This document shows, one piece after another, positions 29,403 to 33,689 of a stretch of 45,326 nt of DNA. The notes under the pieces are model-generated. The model was not told the DNA's origin. It saw only the letters and a program-made list of their open reading frames with translations, and made no database searches. Source of the stretch: Burkholderiales bacterium (lineage in GTDB: Bacteria > Pseudomonadota > Gammaproteobacteria > Burkholderiales > Burkholderiaceae_C). The DNA lies in NCBI GenBank assembly GCA_947451035.1, contig CANFXR010000012.1:1-45326 (forward strand), read 5' to 3'. How positions within the stretch are numbered: position 1 is the first letter of the stretch; the number at the start of each line of letters is the position of its first letter. Made by a program: the position numbers and the translations under genes.

Positions 29403-32400
29403 TCAGGCATGCGCTGGCGCGGGCGACCCGGCGCTTCCCTGTTCGGCGTCGATCTGGAGCAGTTGGCGACAGGCCTCGAGCGCGCCATCGAAGTCCAGGC
29501 TCTGGGTGGCGAGCTCCAGTTGCGTGGTCAGGTCGCTCGACAAGGCCCGCAGTGGCGCTCTGAGCGCCTCGAACACACCGAGCGCCGCCATGTCATTGGC
29601 CTCGAGCAGGCTCATCAAGCGCCTGAGGGCCTCGCGGTCGACTTCGGCGAAAGCCACCGTTGGCAGCACGACCGGCGAGTCACCCGCTGCGAGCGCGCTC
29701 AGCGCATCGTCGATCGCGGCTTGAGTGGCTTCGACCAACCGGCCCAGCGCCGCGGTGCTTTCGTGCAGAGCGCGCAGCCCATCGTCTTCCAGACAGATCC
29801 TGACCAGCCGGGTGAGTTCGGCGGCCAGCGCCGTCAGCCCCAGCGTGGCGGTCGTGCCCTTGAAGGCGTGCAGCAAGGTATGCGCCTGTGGCTGCGCGCC
29901 TTGCGCGATGAGGTCAGCCAGCGCGGGAGCCAACGTGCTCAGGTCTTGGCGCAGGCCCTGCGCGGAGCGCACATAGAGCGAGCGCAGCCCGCCCATGCGC
30001 TGCAGCGCTTCGGGCACATCGATGTACGGCGTGACCAGCGCGGCCATGCCGCTCAGGCTCTTGACCGGGGCTTGGGCTGCGGGCAGCTGAGCGACCGGGG
30101 CAGCGTCCGCTGCCGGCTCGAAGCCGGTCAGTCGAATCAGCAAGGAGATCAGCTGAGCGATGTCGAAGGGCTTGCCCACGTGCTCGTTCATGCCCGCGTT
30201 GAGGCAGGCTTGCCGATCGGACTCCATGGCGTTGGCGGTCAATCCGATGATGGGCAGGCTCTGGGTCCCGAGCGTCTTGCGGATGGCGCGGGTCGACGCA
30301 TAACCGTCCATCACCGGCATCTGCACGTCCATCAACACGGCATCGAAAGGCGTCTTGGCCGCAGCCACGGCCGCGTGACCCTCGCTGCCGTCACAGGCGA
30401 TGGACACGATCGCGCCTTCGGCCTCAAGCAGTTCCTGGGCGACTTGCCGGTTGATCGCGATGTCTTCGACCACCAGCACGCGCATGCCGGCGATCCGCCC
30501 GCCGCTCGCGGCGCTCGGGCGCCAGACCGCTTCGGACTCGCCCCCAAGCAAACGGCCCAGCGATGCGTTGAACAGCATCGACGCGGTGAACGGCTTGACG
30601 AGGAAGCCGCCGATCTGGTCCTGTTCGTCCTTGGACCGCGTGTACAGGTTCTCGCGACCGAGGGCGGACACCATCACCACCAAAGGCTGCCTGGCGCCCC
30701 GATCGGCCACCATCTTGCGCATCTGGCGGATGGTCTCCCAGCCATCCATCCCGGGCATGAGCCAGTCGATGTAGAGCGTCTGGTAGGGCTGCCCGAACTG
30801 CGTCATGCGCGACGCCATCAAGCGCAGCGCCTCGGCACCGCTTTGCGCCACGCCCACGGTCCAGCCAAACGACTCCAGTATCTTGGCCATGACCTGGCCC
30901 GCAATGGCGTTGTCGTCGACCACCAAGGCCGTGTTGCCGCGAAGCGCCTCGAGGTCGAGCGCGCGAGCGGCTTCGGGTTCGCCAGCGGCGATCGACTGAT
31001 CGCTGGCCACCGGAAGGCGCAGCTTGAAGCGAAACGTGCTGCCGCTGCCCAGTTCGCTTTCGAGTTCGATGCGCCCACCCATCAAGCCGACCAGCCGCTG
31101 GCTGATGGCCAGACCCAAGCCGGTGCCGCCGAACTGCCGGGTGGTGGAAGCCTCGGCCTGGGCGAATTCGTTGAACACCAGCGCCTGCTTTTCCGGGGCG
31201 ATGCCGATGCCCGAATCCGTGACCGAGAACTCGATCAGCACCTCACCACCACCGGCACCGTCGGCCGCCGGCTCCCGAGCTTCAAGCCGCAGCCTGACCA
31301 CGACCTGACCGGTGAACGTGAACTTGATGGCGTTGCCCGCCAGATTGAGCAGCACCTGGCGCAGCCGGGTCGCGTCGCCGATGAGCGATGAGGGGATCGC
31401 CGGGTCGATGTCGTACAGCACGTCGATGGTCTTGCGATCCGCGTTGGCGCTCAGCACGACCGCCAGATCGCGCATCAGGCGATCCAGGCGAAAGGCCCGC
31501 AGCTCAAGGTTCATCTTGCCCGCATCGATCTTGGAAAAATCCAGGATGTCGTTGAGGATCTCCAGCAGCGAGCGGGCCGCACCTTCGGCTTTTTGCGCGT
31601 AGTCCAGCTGGGTGCCGTCAAGCCTGGTTGCGGCCAGCAGTTTGTGCATGCCCAGGATGGCGTTCATCGGGGTGCGCAGCTCGTGCGACATGTTGGCCAG
31701 GAACTGCGACTTGGCCATGCTCGCGTTTTCGGCCCGCTGCTCGGCCAGCTTGCGCTGCTCGAGCGCGATGTGCAGTTCATCGACCCGCTGCTCAAGATCG
31801 CGGTGGCTTTGCTCGACCTCGTCACGCGCGCTGATCAGCCCCTCGCGCGCATCGTCGATGCTGCTCGCGGCATCGGCAATGCCCATCTTCAGCGTGTTGA
31901 AGCTGTCGGCCATCGCTCCGAGTTCATCGCGGCTGTTCACGCTCACCAGCGTGCGGTCCACGCGCGCATGGGCTTCGGCGATGCGCCCCGCACCCAGCGC
32001 GCGCATGGCTCGCACGAAATCGGCCACCGTGCCCAGCGCCAGGCCCTGAGCAGCAGCGGCCACCGTGACGGCCGAGTGGGCAATCATCCCCGGCAGGATC
32101 AGCCCCACGCTGATGGTCAGCATGGCCACCGCCACGAACACGTCTTCAAGGATGCTCACCAGCGCGGTGTTGCCGGCCGGCACATTGCCCACCGCCAGCA
32201 GGTAGCCGGCGCCGTCGAGCACCAGCACCAGCAGCATCGCCCCCGTCAGCTTGATGTGCAGCGAGCGCGCCACCCCGGGCAGTCCGAGCTTGCGTCGGTC
32301 GGAGTACTTGCGCACCGCATACAGGATCGCCCCCGAATAGGCGAACGCGATGCCGAACAGCACGGTCGGCAAGCCGAACTGCTGAAAGCCGAGCACGGCC

Positions 32401-33689
32401 GAGACCCCCCACACCACCGCGGCGCCCAGCCCCAGCATGATGGTGCCGCGCGGGGCGCGGTAGGGGCGCGCCATCTCGGGCGCGTCGCGGCGCAGCAACC
32501 ACACCGCCACGCTGGGCAGCGTGATGCCGATCAGGTAGGTGAAGTTGGCCGCGGCGATCAGCCAGATCGGGTCGCCGATCAGCAGGAAGAAGATCGACAT
32601 CGAGGCGGTGAGGATCGTCGCCACCCACGGCGCATCGGTGCGCGAGCGACGCGCAAGCACGGCCGGCAGCAACCCGTCTTCGGCCAGCTGCGACAGCGTG
32701 CGCGAGGCACCGGCCAGCGGCTGCACGGTGCCGTGAAACATGTTGAGCATCATGAACCAGATGGCCGCCGCCTTGGCGCCTGCGCCGAACAGCGGCGCGA
32801 AGGTCGGGCCCAGCACCAGCGCCAGGTCCTTGCCCAGCGGCTCGGCCCCGAGCGCACCCATCCACACCACGGGCAGCAAGATGAAGTAGATCGACGCCAT
32901 CAGCGCGGCGGCCAGCATGGCGCGCGGCACGTTGCGAAACGGGTCCTTGGTCTCGCCCACATGGCAGGCGGCCGCCTCGAAGGCGGGCGCTGCAAAGCCC
33001 ACCAGATACAGACCCGCCATCAGGCTGGTGAGTTCACCAAACCAGCCTGGGAACGGCGTGGTCAGGTGAAAGTCGAACGACTGGTGCCAGTCGACCGACC
33101 CTGAATAGACCGGCAACAACCCGGACAGCAGCGCCAAGGTGGCCGACACCGCCGCCACGGGTTTGATCAACCGCGACACCCACTGCACGCCGGCCAGATT
33201 GACCGCCATGAAAAACAGCACCAGCCCCACGGCCAGCGCGTCGATGGACACGTCCGGCAAATACCAGGTGTGGATGGCCGACGCCGACAGCAGCGCCGTC
33301 AGCCCGCAGGTGGGCACCCAACCCCACCAGTAGCAAGTGCCCGCCAGGTTGGCCAGCACCGGCGCATAGGGCCGGAAGGCTTCCCCGCAAGTGGCTGCGA
33401 TGCCGCCCACGCGGTTGGGCCACATCAGGATCAGCTCGGTCCAGCCCGGTGCGGCCGCCCAGCTCAGCAACAGGCCCAGCACCAGCAACGGCACCGCCGC
33501 ACTGCCCTGCCCCGGGATGTCGCCCTGACCGGCAAACAGCGCCGCGATCAGGAACAGGCTCTGGTTGCTGCCGCCCATGGCCAGCGCCGTGGTGCCGAAC
33601 CAGCCCAGGGTGCGCGGGTGGGGTTGCGGCACGGCGTGGGCCGGGTCCTCTTGGGCGTGCCGCCGGTCGGAAATGGGGTGGTCAGTCAT
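29403..33689 (-). CDS. APC-family permease fused to hybrid histidine kinase with two REC and Hpt domains
   Basis: One unbroken 1428-aa frame. Residues about 28-460 are a 12-helix APC-superfamily amino-acid permease: TM1 has GGSNQS, and the family loop [19 protein letters not shown] is at 245-263. Two further helices (about 480-501 and 511-548) lead into a HAMP-like region (about 555-605) and a coiled coil (to about 660). HisKA has phosphoacceptor H669 in [10 protein letters not shown]; the ATPase has the N box (NLAGNAIKF, 782-790), DSGIGI and GGTGLGL. REC1 has D975, S1008 and K1032; REC2 has D1076, D1121, T1151 and K1173. Hpt has H1274 in [13 protein letters not shown]. All phosphorelay residues are present, and the final Hpt implies an external response regulator. 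The ATG at 33689 has GAGG 11 nt upstream. No cognate regulator or binding protein is adjacent. Domain calls are firm; the ligand is unknown. Confidence 0.93.

Follow-up and report, generated by a model that had tools for sequence, protein, structure and literature searches.

A putative sensor module made of an APC-family permease and a HAMP domain, joined to exchangeable kinase and cyclic di-GMP outputs

Introduction

The described systems closest to the protein treated here are CbrA and CrbS (MxtR), in which a LeuT-fold transporter of the SSS/SLC5 family, followed by a STAC linker, lies N-terminal to a (hybrid) histidine kinase in one chain and makes a candidate transceptor. In the accessible text of one paper CbrA is termed a rare transceptor (PMC13022988), and in that of another transceptors appear as oddities, with the STAC-linked CbrA set aside (PMC11109136). 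In Ks-Amt5, as far as the available portion of its description goes, the ligand sensor of a histidine kinase is likewise a fused transporter domain, this being an Amt/Rh trimer without HAMP, PAS or STAC (PMC5764959). Ks-Amt5 has lost ammonium transport. The yeast amino-acid transceptors of the Gap1/Ssy1 type are APC-family permeases acting as sensors, but they are eukaryotic and are not known to be fused to a kinase. LysP is a permease that informs CadC and is not a fusion, according to the accessible part of the source (PMC6978683). The present study concerns the gene at positions 29403..33689, minus strand, of a 45,326-nucleotide stretch of DNA from a Burkholderiales bacterium (assembly GCA_947451035.1, contig CANFXR010000012.1; the whole stretch is called the window). 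Open reading frame (ORF), domain and residue evidence give its product as an APC permease, two further transmembrane helices (TM), HAMP, HisKA, HATPase, two receivers (REC) and Hpt.

By analogy this protein would work like CbrA and Ks-Amt5, yet it belongs to neither family. The available text of one source assigns both the SSS/SLC5 and the APC families to a single APC superfamily of LeuT-fold proteins (PMC7918813), so the fusion represents another family of the same superfamily. An earlier reading of the sequence (the original prediction) had drawn the parallel to CbrA. The separate transporter-kinase fusion, with an APC instead of an SLC5 family, stands, but the "different superfamily" it spoke of does not. 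The original prediction also took transporter-based sensing to have evolved more than once; that such fusions did so had, by the accessible text, already been shown by Ks-Amt5 (PMC5764959).

The place of STAC in CbrA/CrbS is here occupied by TM13, TM14 and HAMP, and while the outputs described for CbrA/CrbS are kinases in the sources as available, relatives of the window protein also carry cyclic di-GMP (c-di-GMP) enzymes. Against the Amt/Rh domain of Ks-Amt5 stand an APC permease and HAMP: the window protein has no Pfam match to Amt/Rh at E≤0.001, and SSF was found neither among its listed matches (E≤0.001) nor in 17 full-length relatives (E≤0.001 or E≤0.01). The relay HisKA-HATPase-REC-(REC)-Hpt is that of BarA/TorS/ArcB-type hybrid kinases, whose sensor half is unrelated; the best NCBIfam match of the window kinase is BarA, at 408 bits, below the equivalog cut-off of 890.

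Among the open-access papers searched, judged by titles and abstract openings, none on a fusion of an APC permease to a kinase or c-di-GMP enzyme was found, and an earlier listing may exist in subscription papers or domain-architecture databases, which lie outside that scope. EmbRS of Rubrivivax was considered as an earlier description and rejected, EmbS having ten predicted helices with no permease named in the accessible text (PMC3684757). Here it is argued that the permease, the two helices and HAMP form a module that is probably a portable, transporter-derived membrane receptor, recombined with kinases and c-di-GMP enzymes.

Results

One module with several outputs

A scan of the genome collection gave 143 relatives, of which the best 80 (the nearest sequences; 63–97% identical over the module) were fetched. 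With the window these make 81 sequences; 78 rows were used, 74 of them complete (incomplete L034, L056, L071 and L100). The broken-frame loci L078, L091 and L104, whose downstream pieces carry kinase domains, stand outside the 78 rows. The original prediction had proposed counting homologues with the same domain order, and the count showed a kinase or c-di-GMP output downstream of the module in 79 of the 81 sequences. In the two others the frame ends inside a PAS (L071) or the contig ends right after HAMP (L100). According to a domain map based on home-made profiles, seeded from Pfam-defined stretches and then refined by Pfam, the 74 complete members comprise 39 hybrid kinases, 7 plain kinases, 5 HisKA_2, 1 HisKA_3, 20 GGDEF-EAL and 2 GGDEF-HD-GYP proteins. 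At least six output types are attached to one module. Hpt was found in 11 of the 39 hybrid kinases, in L094 at merely 11 bits.

The module tree shows 15 changes of output class, compared with a mean of 31.4 and a minimum of 26 in 200 shuffles, and kinase and c-di-GMP outputs switch 6 times (shuffles: mean 19.3, minimum 14). Because the changes are fewer than in any of the 200 shuffles, the outputs have been inherited yet repeatedly exchanged on this tree. The window protein itself is also discordant: compared with L035 its module is 84% identical and its kinase core 54%, while the kinase core is 63% identical to L004, one of six own-genome kinase loci compared. The kinase of the congener L033 is 88% identical to that of the window. 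Not foreseen in the original prediction, the sensor half recurs widely as a module whose outputs are exchangeable.

The records of the best 80 carry seven phylum labels (Pseudomonadota, Verrucomicrobiota, Armatimonadota, Actinomycetota, Chloroflexota, Myxococcota and Omnitrophota), although most are metagenome bins, in which mis-binning may affect the label. Named isolates with the module are Glaciimonas immobilis, Paraburkholderia kururiensis, Methylocapsa palsarum, Hansschlegelia quercus, Actinoplanes palleronii and a Mesorhizobium. Between phyla the modules are 63–74% identical, and the alignment and tree present permease, helices and HAMP as one conserved, putative sensor module in a single clade under all seven labels. 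One plasmid record has the module (Paraburkholderia sp. PREW-6R, 67% identity).

The module family is rare. With the first 597 residues as query, a search of 149 related genomes detected five full-length modules, namely the window's own, that of a congener (L033, 97% identical and also among the best 80 relatives) and three at 71–73%, the latter with C-termini of PAS-HATPase (L030), GGDEF-EAL (L031) and PAS-GGDEF-EAL (L032); in twelve further genomes the only matches were weaker ones to permeases. Full-length modules were present in three of 369 genomes of the class, the window's own included, and at E≤1e-60 in one of 398 genomes of the phylum, again the window's own. These class and phylum counts, for which up to three candidates were scored per genome, may be underestimates, and their sampling covered no other phyla. 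The window genome has only one module. All seven full-length modules of the whole-genome searches lie in frames of 1049–1432 amino acids. No free-standing copy was seen in these searches, whose selection differs from that of the scan, or among the best 80 of the 143 relatives; as the scan favours the nearest sequences, the 63 others could include some.

Domain layout of the window protein

The ORF is intact, starts with ATG and encodes 1428 amino acids, and with the 80 related loci it bears out the original prediction of a real fusion in one frame. All coordinates below are on the minus strand. The permease core of 12 helices (about residues 30–467; 32289..33602) was recognised by Pfam AA_permease (residues 69–380; 60.1 bits, cut-off 24.6), by an AlphaFold2 model and by Foldseek. 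It is followed by TM13 (about residues 477–501; 32187..32261), a helix of the model, and TM14 (about residues 508–545; 32055..32168), which in the model continues towards HAMP (residues 557–601; 31887..32021). HAMP is below the Pfam cut-off in the window protein, but all 77 module sequences scanned match it at E≤0.001, and it was above the cut-off in 12 of 17 full-length relatives scanned singly (6/8 and 6/9). The two extra helices and HAMP had been predicted correctly.

The kinase half consists of HisKA (DHp; residues 659–724; 31518..31715), HATPase_c (residues 771–893; 31011..31379), receiver 1 (residues 922–1039; 30573..30926), receiver 2 (residues 1071–1183; 30141..30479) and Hpt (about residues 1246–1332; 29694..29954). 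Besides AA_permease, HisKA, HATPase_c and two Response_reg stretches (best 1071–1183) exceed their Pfam cut-offs; receiver 1 was delimited with a profile from relatives. Such a profile gave Hpt 55 bits at residues 1248–1302, and Hpt passes the Pfam cut-off in the relatives L085 and L087. The phosphotransfer residues H669 (in HELRTP), D975, D1121 and H1274 (in HAFKG) are all in place, as the original prediction had stated, and their surrounding motifs are present. The ATP-binding motifs are there too, as is the lysine of each receiver.

Fold and conservation of the permease

The AlphaFold2 model of residues 20–612, built from 77 aligned sequences (predicted local distance difference test, pLDDT, 85.9; predicted template modelling score, pTM, 0.83), has helices that fit a 12-helix permease, then a further pair and a long helix that extends in the direction of HAMP. 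The best match of the model in the Protein Data Bank is AdiC (5j4n_B; Foldseek E 1.2e-12, TM-score 0.61 on the query and 0.82 on the target), and the closest solved structures also include BasC, LAT1, y+LAT and the bacterial CAT homologue 5oqt, which we take to be GkApcT. Together with the AA_permease match, the fold agrees with the APC-type permease of the original prediction. AA_permease was matched at E≤0.001 in 72 of 77 modules and AA_permease_2 in 66 of 77; the window protein itself has no Pfam match to AA_permease_2.

Across the 78 modules 105 positions are invariant; invariant residues of the cavity are G39, N42, Q43, W121, W124 and E238. Per-helix entropy, with borders of helices and segments set by the author from the model, is low in TM3 (0.51), TM10 (0.53), TM6 (0.57), TM8 (0.65) and TM1 (0.67–0.71); of all helices, TM4 (1.54) and TM5 (1.34) have the highest values. 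TM13 (0.76) is similar to the core helices. In LeuT-fold proteins TM1, 3, 6, 8 and 10 are close to the substrate site. Since the cavity-lining helices are among the most conserved parts, a ligand is probably read in the expected substrate cavity of the permease.

Nearest permeases and the ligand question

The closest curated family of the module is the trimethylamine-N-oxide (TMAO) permease NF053774 of NCBIfam, matched by 77 of 77 modules at E≤0.001. The window module scores 120.7 bits, which does not reach the cut-off of 690, whereas three of the nearest free-standing frames score 811–879 bits. The module and the TMAO-like permeases have in common W121, W124 and P126 of TM3 (W-x-x-W-x-P) and the absence of the usual G-x-G of helix 1. 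Helix 1 of the module reads GGSNQS where three ordinary APC rows have GTG or GVG. In APC amino-acid transporters the G-x-G in the unwound part of TM1 is the carboxylate site. Amino acids, on which the original prediction proposed to test signalling, are therefore doubtful as the signal, given the altered motif and the TMAO permease as nearest family.

The nearest family, the shared TM3 residues and the altered helix 1 together make an N-methylated amine a tentative candidate ligand, though it is rather unlikely to be the right one. Against it, mean identity between the module and the free-standing TMAO-like permeases is about 24%, and the two form separate clades on long stems. A trimethylamine monooxygenase gene (L137:5857-7230; NF058570, 848 bits, cut-off 675) adjoins the TMAO permease of L137, and the free-standing permeases of L134 and L137 have glutamate-synthase-like genes within about 1–2 kb; the L137 region is a probable methylated-amine cluster. 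The monooxygenase gene of L137 lies about 3.7 kb from the glutamate-synthase-like gene.

A relative of the glutamate-synthase-like gene (≥72% identity) was found in 3 of 7 genomes with the module as against 6 of 10 same-genus genomes without it (10 of 13 such genomes), and not in the window's own genome, which is 88% complete. Trimethylamine monooxygenase was detected in 0 of these 17 genomes, in a search that had no positive control. Gene co-occurrence does not support a methylated-amine ligand.

Neighbouring genes of the module loci

Of the 13 complete members that have no receiver of their own, 9 are followed directly, on the same strand, by a gene for a receiver-bearing protein, all neighbours having been delimited with the author's own crude ORF caller; in six (L044, L074, L093, L098, L099 and L103) the two genes overlap by 4 bases. 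The c-di-GMP link, present by fusion in 22 of the 74 complete members, extends to five more through regulators 1–2 genes away (REC-HD-GYP in L048, L059 and L112, REC-EAL in L095 and REC-PAS-GGDEF-EAL in L099). The downstream partners of the receiver-less L044, L053, L074, L093 and L098 are REC-PAS-HATPase-REC proteins, so that the next link of the chain seems to be a second kinase. A signalling domain occurs among the three nearest genes on either side in 27 of the 80 loci, the majority being without. As a clue to the ligand no conserved neighbour emerged; the commonest cluster, found in 8 of the 80 loci, carries receiver or kinase domains.

Genomic setting in the window

The gene stands alone in the window, as the original prediction had noted of its missing response regulator, between a convergent ORF (28921–29301) and tRNA-Ala (33895–33970), and the adjacent proteins scanned with Pfam included no signalling-domain neighbour. 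The tRNA-Ala (CGC) is encoded on the opposite strand, a short way upstream of the fused gene. Directly beside the block of gene and tRNA (29380–33972), which has a counterpart in the sister genome L033, blastn gave no continuing match to that genome (E≤1e-10), the next being at window positions 24357–26352.

A repetitive protein of 797 amino acids (26531–28924, plus strand) has no Pfam match, and nothing in the sister genome's aligned stretch matches its DNA; from its N-terminus it is apparently secreted. A tmRNA gene with the tag ANDSTFALAA is located at 549–921 (minus strand). A protein of 926 amino acids (37063–39843, plus strand) combines Methyltransf_24 with two glycosyltransferase family 2 domains, between genes for an MsbA-like protein (35032–36801) and RecC (39971–43363).

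Discussion

If the module is a receptor, a small organic ligand bound in its central cavity would shift the APC permease between alternating-access states. The shift would be relayed via TM12–TM13 and TM14 into the HAMP of a dimer, and HAMP would then govern how active the attached output is. In the window protein phosphate would pass from H669 to a receiver (D975 and/or D1121), on to H1274 and finally to a separate response regulator encoded elsewhere. We infer the order and direction of the relay, and the dimer, from known hybrid kinases and HAMP proteins.

Several results weigh against a receptor read in the cavity. Segments outside the usual cavity parts are equally conserved (TM2 0.68, the TM2–TM3 segment 0.57, the TM6–TM7 loop 0.55). 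The per-position conservation of the module resembles that of 11 free-standing TMAO-like permeases, a point for the receptor, but the correlation is moderate (Spearman 0.39, 439 positions), and folding also conserves core helices. In the window protein HAMP reaches 21.4 bits against a Pfam cut-off of 25, and Hpt was missed by the full-length Pfam scan at E≤0.001, scoring 21.4 against 24.6 bits on the C-terminal fragment of the protein. The trees were made by a quick method with support from the Shimodaira–Hasegawa-like approximate likelihood ratio test (SH-aLRT) alone, and the change counts come from one best tree. By the accessible text, CbrA without its SSS domain still signals, though this domain alters its kinase kinetics (PMC7918813); a transporter domain is thus not necessarily the main sensor.

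Within the receptor reading, the module may have lost transport altogether and become a pure receptor like Ks-Amt5, which is a serious possibility, somewhat short of an even chance. The long stem between the module and real permeases, the changed helix-1 motif and the failure to see free-standing copies in the searches made all suit such a loss. However, at 46 positions, including some in TM3, TM6, TM8 and TM10, one and the same residue is kept throughout the 10 module rows and 11 TMAO-like rows compared, and CbrA still transports histidine according to the available text (PMC7918813). A narrower version, which would make it a new class of bacterial membrane sensor and in which a transceptor module of single origin reads a small, TMAO-like N-methylated amine as a plug-in across phyla and feeds phosphorelays and c-di-GMP turnover, is unlikely.

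It is quite improbable that the permease is chiefly a membrane anchor and that the cytoplasmic parts (HAMP, PAS or receiver) read the signal. A PAS occurs in 20 of the 78 members and could sense there instead of the permease, a further point against the receptor, but none was found in the window protein with the Pfam scan or with profiles from relatives. Moreover, the cavity helices are strongly conserved between phyla, and as many as 105 invariant residues are not expected of a mere anchor.

That the direction is reversed, the kinase half controlling the permease as a regulated transporter, is very unlikely. Feedback of this kind is compatible with all results, but the outputs mostly retain their catalytic motifs: GGDEF is kept in 19 of 22 (one-residue variants in 3), and 17 of 20 have an EAL-type motif, the remaining 3 reading ELLLR. 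The receiver-bearing partners downstream of receiver-less members also speak against it. An assembly artefact fusing two genes is ruled out, even though the window is one contig of a draft genome in 164 contigs, as 29380–33972 matches the sister genome assembly end to end at 87% DNA identity and the same fusion occurs in many assemblies, named isolates included.

Transporter-receptor fusions in bacteria have so far been treated as rarities. The 74 complete members are natural constructs in which one transporter module is combined with chemically different outputs, with HAMP at the joint. The conversion of alternating access into a signal becomes testable in them through enzyme read-outs (c-di-GMP synthesis and hydrolysis, kinase activity) and natural chimeras. 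The module resembles a detector built out of a transporter and used again and again, and if this reading is right, it would also connect solute sensing with the c-di-GMP lifestyle switch by a new path.

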